From the NCBI GenBank assembly GCA_905215945.1, contig CAJMRZ010000013.1, positions 1-16,744 on the forward strand: a stretch of 16,744 nt of DNA. Reading direction: 5' to 3'. The notes under the pieces were generated by a model. That model was given only the letters and a program-made list of their open reading frames with translations. It was not told the origin of the DNA and made no database searches. The DNA is from an uncultured bacterium (lineage in GTDB: Bacteria; Actinomycetota; Coriobacteriia; Coriobacteriales; Coriobacteriaceae). The translations under genes were made by a program, and so were the position numbers. Below, piece after piece: positions 3,301-6,483 of this stretch (position 1 is the first letter of the stretch; the number at the start of each line of letters is the position of its first letter).

Positions 3301-3572
3301 CGAAGCGCAACGTGGCCAACGTATTCAATGCCGAGACATGTATCGAGGGCCTCATTGCCGGCGTCTTTGCTATTGTCGTCGTGGTGGCCGTGAGCTTTCC
3401 GGTTAATGCCTGGGCGCTTGCTGCCAAACAGGTACCCAATCTGATGAGCCTGCCCGTGCAGGATGCGCTGGTGCTCATCGCGATTTCGGTGCTGCTGACG
3501 GTTGTCGCTGGCCTGCTGCCGGCCCGTAGCGCATCCAAAAAGGATCCCGTGGAAGCCCTGCGCTCCGAATAA
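306..3572 (+). CDS. Fused MacB-type ABC transporter: ATPase plus FtsX-like permease with a giant extracellular domain
   Basis: The 1088-residue protein joins an ABC ATPase to a permease of the MacB/FtsX/LolE type. ATPase (about 1-225): Walker A GPSGSGKT at 38-45, Q-loop Q90, signature LSGGQMQRV at 142-150, Walker B IVLADEPTG at 162-170, switch His198. One TM lies at about 265-285. An extracellular region of about 660 residues follows, then three C-terminal TMs (about 955-984, 1016-1038, 1053-1076) with the family's coupling segment ERKKEIGILRAIGAS after the first. The extracellular part is much longer than in MacB. It has an acidic low-complexity stretch (about 315-355), a DLSGLD repeat near 665 and a long Gln/Ala-rich, probably helical segment (about 735-860). 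ATG 306 was chosen over an in-frame GTG at 273 because GGAGG lies at 291-295 and the residues from 306 start the ABC fold. MacB-type pumps use ATP for mechanotransmission at the membrane; the substrate here is unknown. Confidence 0.9.
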   Translation: MLELKGICKRYVTQSFTQVALDSVSLAFRDNEFVAILGPSGSGKTTMLNVIGGLDHFDSGDLLIDGISTKDFHDRDWDAYRNNRIGFVFQSYNLIPHQTILENVELALTLTGVGHAERRQRAREALEKVGLGEHVNKRPSQLSGGQMQRVAIARALINDPEIVLADEPTGALDSTTSVQVMDLLKDVARDRLVIMVTHNPELAYQYATRIVNLADGKITDDSDPFDVADATRREAKPTRKTSMSFVTALGLSARNLMTKKGRTAMTAFAGSIGIIGIAAILALSNGVNGYIKKVEEDTLSSYPLTISRQDYDLSSMMGGQGATDDEASNGEDSSDDGTDGKAQGTDKIPVVTAVKDMFASVKSNDMTSFKAWLDDGGDGIDKEVNAIQYGYGVTPVVYRSSKGDEKPVRLVPNAMTEAMSGGASSAATVSMESMGTSVFNEMIDDQSLLDSQYDVVAGHWPTSANEAVMVLSSRGTVGDYTLYSIGALDIDELNDLVNSAMAADGGVETPETGTDFTYDDALSTTFKVLSPADAYRKNEETGMWTDMSGDADFMSAKVADGIDVHIVGVVRPNETANASALSPGIAYTHALTRQLMERAADSQIVQEQLAHPETDVFTGKSFDELQCEAKQGVDLGSMFSVDEAALKSAFSFDTPALSGAAGGMDLSGLDLSGLDIDLSDVGKDIDFSDIMAKAPAPDFSGVFDGLELTPEQMQQVGTLANQLFEGFLQSDQFRALSPEDLRDASKLAAAFSTYLENDAAAQQYLAQLKALGGDALAERLQQAMTDYVQKQLAPYLQQAMDQVMKAISEQIASTVSSQLKAGAAGLMAGLMDQMATQMSSSFANLASAMHVDASAFARAIHFNMDAEDLSSLMMSYAKASKLTYDNNLTTLGYADEADPISVKIFPRDFEAKERVLDHIDAYNKQVKAAGHDDRAISYTDYMGIIMGSVTDIVNTISLVLIAFVSISLVVSSIMIGIITYISVLERKKEIGILRAIGASKRNVANVFNAETCIEGLIAGVFAIVVVVAVSFPVNAWALAAKQVPNLMSLPVQDALVLIAISVLLTVVAGLLPARSASKKDPVEALRSE

Positions 3573-3601
3573 TGCGACAAAAGGGTTGTTCCTTTGTCAC
3601 A
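3573..3601. repeat. Imperfect hairpin of the TTCCTTTGTCAC type after the ABC gene
   Basis: GACAAAAGG (3576-3584) pairs with CCTTTGTC (3591-3598) with one bulged A. It sits directly after the ABC stop codon. There is no T-run, so it is not a classical intrinsic terminator. The right half, TTCCTTTGTCACAT, recurs exactly at 5438-5451. Confidence 0.5.
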
Positions 3602-3622
3602 TTGAGACCCTTGCGAAATCGG

Positions 3623-3798
3623 GGTCTAATACTTTTCCGAGAAGTGAGCGAGTCAAAATGGACCCCCGAAGCGCTAACACTTATTGAAGGCGGTTTCCTG
3701 CGGTTTTGATTGTTAAATCCTGCGGTTTTGGCGTCAGAAAATGTCGATGCTTCGGGGGTCAAAAAACGGTCGTTCACTTCTTGGAAAAGTATTAGACC
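3623..3798 (+). repeat. Hairpin-forming dispersed element, copy 1 (50-nt arms, 76-nt loop)
   Basis: Arms 3623-3672 and 3749-3798 are reverse complements at 40 of 50 positions; seven of the ten mismatches cluster in one internal bulge. The outermost 16 bp pair perfectly. The 76-nt loop (3673-3748) holds TCCTGCGGTTTTG twice, at 3696-3708 and 3718-3730 (22-nt period). The reverse complement of copy 2 (5154-5335) aligns to it with no gap in the loop, at about 70% identity by hand, and with the same arm core (TTTTCC, GAAGTGA, GGACCC). The outermost 10 bp are not shared with copy 2, although they are complementary within this copy. No coding capacity is seen. It lies 46 bp beyond the stop codon of the membrane-protein gene and could act as its terminator; this role is inferred. 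Confidence 0.85.
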
Positions 3799-3844
3799 TC
3801 GAGATATAGACGATGTTCGCGAGCGGCAATTAGAGCGTAAGCCT

Positions 3845-4978
3845 TTAGTTCTTCTTTGCAGAGAGCATGAGCCTAATTTCCGGATGGGTGTATTCGTCGA
3901 ACTCTTCTTTGGGCTCGGTGTCAAAGGCGTAGTACGACCTGATGGATTCGCCCTCCGTCTCGATGCTGATTTCTTCATATAGGGAGCCGGCTAAAAATGC
4001 CTGCTTAAATTCATCCGACAGGCTGCACGGCGTGAGGAGGCCCGGTGTGGCAACGGAAACGTCCAGCCCATTGAGCGGGGCACAGAGCGTCGCGATATCC
4101 TGCTCGGCGCGGGCGAGGTTGTCTGCAAGGCTTGCCTCGGGGTCGATCTGACTGACGTAATCGACGTCCGTGAGCGTGCCGTCTACATCAAAAGAAAGGT
4201 AGATATAGGCTGCTTGAGCGCCGAGGTCATTATCGCGTAGATAGCCGATTATGCGGTAGCCGTAGTCGTGATACGACTCGTATGGGTCGTCTGCTGCGAC
4301 GCGTTCGCACACGGGCTCCAAGGCATCTTGCGCGATGGCGAGCTGCTCGGCGGCTGCAGCCTTTCTTACCTGAAGCGCGTTATTTCCCTGGACAAACTGC
4401 GGGATGTAGACGCCAAGCAGCACAATGGCGGGCACCACCGCGAGAGCTATGATCTGCTTCTTGACGCTTGGAATCGTCACGCCGTATGCATTTGCCATGG
4501 CCTCGGCATTGCTCGAGGTCTCGGCTAGCACGTCTGCCGCCGTGGCGACTGCCCCTACGGCGCCGGCGACCTCGGCGGCACCGCCCAGGTTGCGCGCGAG
4601 ATCGTTATCGCTGTTCTTGAGCAGGCGGCCGGCAGCTTGCGTGGCAAGCACGCCGGCGACCTCCGCGGAACGGTCCTTGTTGGTCTGGGCTACCGCGAGC
4701 CTGCTCTGCAGCTCCTTCCACTGTTTGCCCTGCATTCCAAAGCGCGGCGCAAGAGCGCAATAGCAAAAGATGGCGAGTTCGATTACGGTGAGTGCGATGG
4801 CGGTATATATGCCCGCGGGTTGGAATTCCTTTTGGTGGAACGCGATATCGTTGATCATTTGGAGCGGCAACATCAACAGGCATGCTACGAACGACATGAC
4901 GAGTGCGGTCGCTGCGATCTTGGGGTATGTGCAGTACCGCTGTATGCGTTTCTTTTCTTGTTCGGTGAGTTGCTGCAT
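3845..4978 (-). CDS. Orphan membrane protein with three predicted TM segments and a C-terminal extracytoplasmic domain
   Basis: I do not recognise a family for this 377-residue protein. It has a polar N-terminus, TM segments at about 21-41 and 57-76, a roughly 100-residue Ala-rich cytoplasmic or membrane-surface segment with possible amphipathic helices (about 90-165), TM3 at about 176-196, and a soluble C-terminal domain of about 180 residues, acidic, with three cysteines (C224, C299, C318). If the N-terminus is inside, the C-terminal domain faces outward. The ATG at 4978 has GAGG four bases upstream. An in-frame GTG at 5020 would add 14 residues; it has no Shine-Dalgarno but lies 7 bp after a TATACT box, so a leaderless form is possible. 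The gene stands alone on its strand, flanked by inverted copies of the 176-182 bp repeat, which suggests it may be an acquired or mobile cargo. That is inference. Coding character resembles its neighbours. Confidence 0.75.
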   Translation of the reverse strand: MQQLTEQEKKRIQRYCTYPKIAATALVMSFVACLLMLPLQMINDIAFHQKEFQPAGIYTAIALTVIELAIFCYCALAPRFGMQGKQWKELQSRLAVAQTNKDRSAEVAGVLATQAAGRLLKNSDNDLARNLGGAAEVAGAVGAVATAADVLAETSSNAEAMANAYGVTIPSVKKQIIALAVVPAIVLLGVYIPQFVQGNNALQVRKAAAAEQLAIAQDALEPVCERVAADDPYESYHDYGYRIIGYLRDNDLGAQAAYIYLSFDVDGTLTDVDYVSQIDPEASLADNLARAEQDIATLCAPLNGLDVSVATPGLLTPCSLSDEFKQAFLAGSLYEEISIETEGESIRSYYAFDTEPKEEFDEYTHPEIRLMLSAKKN

Positions 4979-5027
4979 GGGGCCTCGACTCTCATCGTTT
5001 TTCGGGGGCGATGCGCACACGCTCTTG

Positions 5028-5033
5028 AGTATA
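5028..5033 (-). promoter_or_regulatory. TATACT -10 box candidate for the orphan membrane-protein gene
   Basis: On the minus strand TATACT (5 of 6 consensus) is followed by 7 nt and then the in-frame GTG at 5020, or by a 49-nt leader to the ATG at 4978. No good -35 box is present. The remaining stretch from about 5034 to 5153 shows nothing else recognisable. Confidence 0.35.
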
Positions 5034-5153
5034 GATGAGTGAAGGACGTCTGTTGTTCATATAGCGGTCAACAGCGTGCTGTTGGTGGTCGTTTGATCGC
5101 GAACGTCGTCTTTTGGAGCATGAAGCCGCTGCCGATGCCCGCAAACAGCAAAT

Positions 5154-5335
5154 CGAAGGTGAATGGTTTCCCGAGAAGTGAACGACCTAATTTGGACCCC
5201 TGAAGCACCCACGTTTTTCGACGCTAAAACCGCAGGATTTGAGTGATAAAACCGCAGGAATTGGCCTTCCAAAAGTGTCGATGCATCGAGGGTCCGATTT
5301 CACTCGTTCACTTCGCGGAAAACCATTCACCTTCG
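5154..5335 (-). repeat. Hairpin-forming dispersed element, copy 2 (53-nt arms, 76-nt loop), inverted relative to copy 1
   Basis: Arms 5154-5206 and 5283-5335 are reverse complements at about 43 of 53 positions, with the outermost 16 bp perfect. The loop (5207-5282) is 76 nt, exactly as in copy 1. It contains AAAACCGCAGGA at 5226-5237 and 5248-5259, again with a 22-nt period; this is the reverse complement of the copy 1 box. The outer 13 bp, starting CGAAGGTGAATGG, are unrelated to those of copy 1 but perfectly complementary within this copy. It lies upstream of the orphan membrane-protein gene, so the gene sits between two inverted copies. Confidence 0.85.
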
Positions 5336-5418: not shown

Positions 5419-5421
5419 GCA

Positions 5422-5451
5422 TGTAACAAGGGGGCGGTTCCTTTGTCACAT
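5422..5451. repeat. Imperfect hairpin of the TTCCTTTGTCAC type in the dus leader
   Basis: TGTAACAAGG (5422-5431) pairs imperfectly with CCTTTGTCACA (5440-5450). It shares TTCCTTTGTCACAT with the hairpin at 3573-3601. If the promoter candidate just upstream is real, this hairpin is transcribed in the 5' leader of the dihydrouridine synthase mRNA. Confidence 0.45.
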
Positions 5452-6431: not shown

Positions 6432-6483
6432 GTCGTTGGGGACGTTCTTTAACGACTAGTCATTTAAGAACGTCCCCAACGAC
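6432..6483. terminator. Perfect 18-bp palindrome between convergent genes, candidate bidirectional terminator
   Basis: Arms 6432-6449 and 6466-6483 are perfect reverse complements around a 16-nt loop. It lies 3 bp after the dus stop and 9 bp after the stop of the convergent glutaredoxin gene. There is no T-run on either strand, so termination is inferred from position and stem strength. The core GGGGACGTTCTT relates it to other palindromes of the window. Confidence 0.6.

Follow-up and report, generated by a model that had tools for sequence, protein, structure and literature searches.

Small palindromic repeats described so far are identified by ends that are conserved, and Correia elements include subtypes in which alpha and beta ends are mixed. 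In excerpts of the two sources that describe them, the Correia elements of Neisseria (NEMIS) are about 107 and 155 bp long, have terminal inverted repeats, give hairpin transcripts and, in the longer form, contain a site for integration host factor (IHF) (PMC2229807, PMC10969869). ERIC/RU-1, RUP and RPE are described in an excerpt of PMC2229807 as small palindromes with long stems. The window analysed here is a stretch of 16,744 nt from contig CAJMRZ010000013.1 (assembly GCA_905215945.1). It contains two hairpin elements for which the initial annotation knew of no described counterpart in layout; small palindromic repeats of similar layout do exist. The window elements resemble Correia elements in their small size, terminal inverted repeats and mixed end subtypes, and resemble ERIC/RU-1, RUP and RPE as small palindromes with long stems. 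Unlike Correia elements, they occur in few copies, show no visible TA ends or target duplication, have a longer outer stem with an internal loop and an inner stem, and share a loop word with hairpins of other stems. They differ from ERIC/RU-1, RUP and RPE in the absence of visible TA termini, in the conserved loop word and in the different end types found at the same site.

Both window hairpins are real, and what had been observed in the initial annotation was confirmed in large part, not wholly. Copy 1 lies at 3620..3801 on the forward strand (182 bp, end type A/A) and copy 2 at 5154..5335 on the reverse strand (182 bp, end type b/b); both were delimited by fold, nhmmer match and end typing. 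The two are inverted copies, as had been claimed, with 75% complementarity over 175 nt, and their loops align without gaps. Each forms a long hairpin: the minimum free energy was -99.5 kcal/mol for copy 1 (z -12.0) and -95.4 for copy 2 (z -10.5), and 0/200 shuffles equalled either value. In a 40-copy alignment (A2), the outer stem comprised columns 1-32 paired with 153-184, followed inward by an internal loop (10 nt on each side) that was unpaired in the consensus, an inner stem (columns 43-57 with 128-142) and, at the tip, an apical loop that holds two words similar to TCCTGCGGTTTT. In copy 1 the outer stem arms correspond to 3620..3650 and 3771..3801 (forward strand, alignment columns converted by hand) and the two sides of the inner stem to 3661..3675 and 3746..3760 (forward strand, from the alignment columns). 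The apical loop of each window copy contains TCCTGCGGTTTT twice, 22 nt apart: at 3696..3707 and 3718..3729 on the forward strand in copy 1, where both lie in conserved columns and the first recurs in the loops of other hairpins, and at 5226..5237 and 5248..5259 on the reverse strand in copy 2, as read from the sequence. Pairing of each outer stem with its own partner was found at 12/13 outermost positions in copy 1 and 13/13 in copy 2. The outer stems had been called unrelated to each other; CGGGGTCTAATAC and CGAAGGTGAATGG in fact match at 6/13 positions and belong to recurring end types of one family.

The window and the 43 genomes compared with it belong, we presume, to the genus Collinsella; the closest of these genomes (G001) had 40% of the window's sampled words in common. 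A blastn search with copy 1 matched 21/43 congeneric genomes, and the hairpins are thus a repeat family. A covariance model built from A2 matched at least 36/65 genomes of the taxonomic family, weakly outside the copy-rich genomes. In total, 62 distinct copies were collected from the fetched loci, with sequence plus 20 nt of flank as the deduplication key, so that identical copies in different genomes counted once; one copy (L145) was cut by a contig end. Copy number was low, with up to eight per genome among the matches listed. The 60/62 copies with both flanks long enough were grouped by flank into 26 flank families and 16 junction pairs. Four flank families were joined to more than one partner, which places some copies at the edge of variable segments, and some copies lay about 37-43 bp past a stop codon; integron attC-like cassettes were considered for these two reasons. 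By eye, the genes on either side of the copies were convergent, divergent or co-directional. Phage and plasmid records contained no match to copy 1, and two patterns, one of which matches known copies in 61/347 loci of this study, had no match in viral contigs. ARAGORN found no tRNA fragment beside the asd copy in the scanned loci. Among the papers listed on palindromic, hairpin or intergenic repeats of Coriobacteria or Collinsella, judged by title and start of abstract, none dealt with such a family, which is not proof that the family is undescribed.

One copy (L031 in G033) was split, with two frames inside its loop (L031:3887-6624) that presumably resemble an IS21-type transposition pair. 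This copy was rejected as an autonomous element, the two frames being taken as a later insertion. Two contigs of G005 (L032, L033) end inside element loops and may represent another insertion.

Three end types recurred: A (CGAGGTCTAATAC), B (CGAAGGTGAATAC) and b (CGAAGGTGAATGG). Typing used sites 6-8 and 12-13 alone, so some copies scored as matched differ at other outer sites. Matched ends were found in 47/62 copies (A1/A1 31, B2/B2 12, B1/B1 4), clear hybrid ends in nine (B1/B2 5, B1/A1 3, A1/B1 1) and incompletely typed ends in six (?1/A1 3, A1/?1 2, unclear 1). Some hybrids had broken outer pairs. Since 15/62 copies are hybrid or incompletely typed, the outermost 13 bp need not pair. In a tree built from the inner parts of 61 copies, from which 22 left and 21 right columns were excluded, the label A/A required four changes and the label b/b five, at least three changes being forced by starred branches in each case; all end labels together required 11 changes, compared with 28.4 for shuffled labels. 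Three junctions carried A/A in some genomes and b/b in others. At the asd site (5,6), both types were present and the eight copies formed one starred clade by their inner parts. At the L041/L043 site (18,19), A/A and b/b both fell inside a starred clade of eight that included copies from elsewhere. At the L034-type/L133 site (14,15), the inner parts of the A/A and b/b copies were not close, so that two insertions may have taken place independently at this site. Intermediate steps between the end types, e.g., CGAAGGTTAATAC, also occurred, and drift may therefore explain part of the end changes. Overall, it is well supported that the elements form a real family of palindromic repeats with unusual, interchangeable matched ends.

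The dus locus was found in several states. In six relatives (L085, L086, L088, L090, L094, L096) an ABC transporter gene, a short palindrome and dus followed one another without the element. Six loci (L081, L082, L091, L095, L097, L099) carried copy 1, a frame and copy 2 in between, with the frame incomplete in L091, and three (L084, L089, L092) carried a single element and no frame match. In the window this frame is an ORF of 391 aa between both copies (3845..5020, reverse strand); it had no match in Pfam, NCBIfam or PADLOC. Alleles of asd and gatB without the element also lacked about 100 and about 80 bp of flank, respectively. At dus, asd and gatB no clean empty site was found, since the shorter allele also lacked flanking sequence, and no target duplication was seen by eye at the three loci.

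Two side observations concern the surroundings of copy 2. Beside it, at 5134-5149, stands the 16-nt sequence GATGCCCGCAAACAGC; L095 has the opposite orientation, GCTGTTTGTGGGCATC, as if flipped by template switching beside the hairpin. Upstream of dus in L063 (G021), all that is left at the copy-2 site is CCATTCACCTTCG, an outer arm end, which looks like what a deletion of the remainder would leave.

The loop word was also found in hairpins with other stems. Weak covariance-model matches in other species (L122-L130) had other stems and, in most cases, the same or a similar loop word. A first probe, TCCTGSGGTTTTGC, found 20 sites in 16 genomes, 12 of them in strong hairpins (two of those in one window-type copy). 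The pattern TTCCTG(C/G)GGTTTT, a word picked after the window family and the weak model matches had been seen, gave 45 matches in 44 genomes of the taxonomic family without the window type, compared with three for the reversed pattern. After identical contexts were merged, 23/44 sites lay between arms scoring at least 40, some of these being orthologues of one another. As controls, 3/1239 random positions in the same loci and 8/520 positions outside long frames lay in strong hairpins. In other families of the class 2/19 loop-word sites lay in strong hairpins, and outside the class 0/10. Among altered words searched in the loci of this study, 4/6 had no match; TTCCTG(A/T)GGTTTT had two matches and TTCCAG(C/G)GGTTTT one, all three in hairpins, a result that carries no weight for or against. 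Of the 45 sites, 27 fell within an open frame of 120 aa or longer (in any of six frames) and 18 did not, so the wider set cannot simply be called "intergenic". When a few variants of the word were admitted as well, 47 motif hairpins scoring at least 40 formed 24 stem clusters. This set includes window-type copies and structure-model finds and is no unbiased census, and some clusters share short pieces by eye, so that they are not 24 proven independent origins. Several stem clusters occurred in one genome, e.g., L129, L301, L303 and L304 as against L302 and L305 in G059. Supported against the controls from random positions, positions outside long frames and more distant lineages, the window family apparently belongs to a broader set that keeps the loop word and not the stem.

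Outside hairpins, the loop word stood directly before a promoter-like stretch (TTGAA...TAAGGT) at six loci: L156, L161, L175, L185, L186 and L294. The next frame held MALPQLTDEQRKAALEKAAAARHARAELREKIKKGE in L161, L175 and L185, i.e., in 3/4 of the promoter-type loci with frames listed; we take this frame to be an actinobacterial-type IHF. At four other loci (L172, L192, L194, L299) the loop word was upstream of tRNA genes. Its position near promoters suggests a putative DNA-binding site.

Considered together, these data lead us to favour, with somewhat better than even confidence, the reading that both window copies belong to one interspersed, Correia-type MITE-like family of non-coding, near-palindromic DNA elements, which would act at the DNA level and carry a putative protein site in the loop. 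For the window family it is established that two long inverted arms carry interchangeable ends of two or three types, that the consensus leaves the internal loop unpaired and that the apical loop holds a 12-nt word twice, 22 nt apart. From its occurrence near promoters as well, the loop word may be recognised by a DNA-binding protein, possibly one that bends DNA or belongs to the nucleoid. The arms would provide two identical duplex sites for a trans-acting protein, or would allow cruciform extrusion; no trans-acting protein acting on the arms was found. Likeness of the arms would be kept by exchange between arms or between copies rather than by RNA folding. The original spread of the copies was probably by transposition, and most copies would now be inherited in place.

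The elements could instead be ordinary MITEs derived from a lost insertion sequence. Successive subfamilies would then account for the matched ends as their terminal repeats, and chance or descent for the loop word in common. Size (182 bp, below 500 bp), the non-coding sequence, the terminal inverted repeats (outer stem over 32 columns), dispersal (62 distinct copies, 16 flank junctions) and the subfamily ends all agree with MITEs, and the hybrids resemble the mixed-end Correia subtypes. Against this, the three loci inspected by eye showed neither target duplication nor precise empty sites, and the wider set shares the loop word, not the ends. All 39/39 arm-core matches in the 43 genomes fell in known elements, and no autonomous relative or insertion sequence with the same ends was found there, in what was a partial search because the arm-core pattern was limited to a single arm spacing and a single end type. 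We consider this origin unlikely.

A second alternative assigns the elements to the REP/REPIN repeats, which a RAYT (Y1 transposase) moves, and takes their stems for the transposase's own palindromes in inverted pairs. Y1_Tnp genes were indeed frequent, with 85 matches in 37/43 genomes. In G034 a Y1 gene (L343) was flanked by inverted copies of the stem sequence of another loop-word hairpin, the L178 type, which is thus a REP-like pair. The likeness to REP/REPIN with RAYT therefore includes inverted pairs, Y1 genes in the same genomes and one loop-word hairpin type that forms such a pair. However, 0/20 fetched Y1 loci (of the 85 matches; frame identified by pattern in 17) contained window-type arms or the loop word. 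Twelve Y1 loci had an inverted repeat around the gene, nine of these 12 with a GGGAC core that window-type arms lack. Few copies and longer arms also distinguish the window elements from REP/REPIN, and a RAYT-driven origin is, in our judgement, decidedly improbable.

Other palindromes in the window touch on the same subject. A second palindromic repeat of 31 nt is present at 3572-3602 and 5421-5451 (81% alike; form in relatives, GTGACAAAGGGACAGTCCCTTTGTCAC) and encloses the inserted module as a whole. This repeat is possibly a REP, since its GGGAC core is shared with the inverted repeats of 9/12 Y1 genes. Just past dus, at 6432-6483, lies a near-perfect 26-bp palindrome with GGGGACGTTC, also present in relatives and probably of the same REP-like kind as the 31-nt repeat.

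A third alternative holds that the hairpins are structured RNAs (processing site, bidirectional terminator or small RNA), with changes in the outer stem as compensatory mutations that keep an RNA helix. Structured cis-regulatory RNAs (Rfam) likewise have long stable hairpins, and the strong folding of both copies agrees with this view. So does the number of both-sided changes in the 40 copies: 67 cells, compared with 24.9 +- 3.6 after shuffling and 2-16 with a slid partner. The claim that pairing is kept while the outer sequence changes is often true. It does not hold throughout, given the 15/62 copies that are hybrid or not fully typed, and the counts of pairs were not above shuffles: 10 pairs had both-sided change, compared with 8.5 (124/500 shuffles), and 28 pair types, compared with 28.0. 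On the tree of the window family, 34 double changes went from pair to pair, and one-sided changes led to G.U 46 times and to A.C 37 times. Cells of A2 held G.U 54 times and A.C 30 times, a modest excess on related sequences. This slight lean towards G.U was confined to the window family. In the 24 stem clusters taken together, mismatches between the arms comprised G.U 54, A.C 52 and others 154, with seven clusters richer in G.U and eight in A.C. Compensatory change in a structured RNA, as had been proposed, is not supported over the 24 clusters because G.U and A.C mismatches are equal; the lack of a wobble preference over these clusters would set the elements apart from structured cis-regulatory RNAs, and the Rfam comparison separates them as well. 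Rfam had no match at the gathering score in the window, with chance-level matches at E 0.19 and 1.1, and among 20 related loci it matched tRNAs only at that score, the elements remaining unmatched. The hybrids with broken outer pairs and the placement of copies in all three gene orientations also argue against a role as RNA. An RNA helix as the cause of the stem changes is thus disfavoured on sequence evidence, and the RNA reading as a whole appears very unlikely.

The last alternative derives the outer stem from flanking DNA that is copied in inverted form on insertion. It was suggested by outer ends that differ between the two window copies and is rejected as extremely improbable, because a few end types recur at 16 junctions and beside unrelated flanks, and because the element-free sites inspected show no such palindrome.

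The favoured reading, a DNA-level family with a putative protein site in the loop, can be extended to the wider set. Tentatively, and with somewhat less than even confidence, Coriobacteria may have a class of DNA hairpins that is the reverse of MITEs, in which the stem is long and nearly free in sequence and the loop word is kept. The 24 stem clusters, more than one of them in a single genome, point to such a nearly sequence-free stem. The loop word also lies near promoters of tRNA operons and of the IHF-like gene. The hairpin would give a nucleoid or recombination protein a place to dock, and the arms would be replaced and re-matched as blocks. In contrast to known repeats, the ends are interchangeable, and the wider set keeps a short loop word although its stems differ. 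Should the loop word be under selection, the elements would offer a way of getting at an unknown DNA-binding protein, and their inverted repeats a natural collection for asking how the arms of a palindrome stay alike. They also caution that not every covarying stem is an RNA.

Some minor observations were made on arms and loop words of the wider set. In six loci (L155, L164, L199 and L293 in G028; L190; L210) each arm of some loop-word hairpins consisted of two or three similar units, e.g., AACCTCCCCTATATTGGGGG, mirrored in the other arm. Four stretches in G014 (L152, L166, L168, L170), related to one another and each about 110 nt long, run from close to the word in inverted form (ACCGCAGGTCA or a similar sequence) to the loop word. 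A tRNA gene was downstream in 1/3 of the scanned G014 stretches of this kind (L152, L166, L170).
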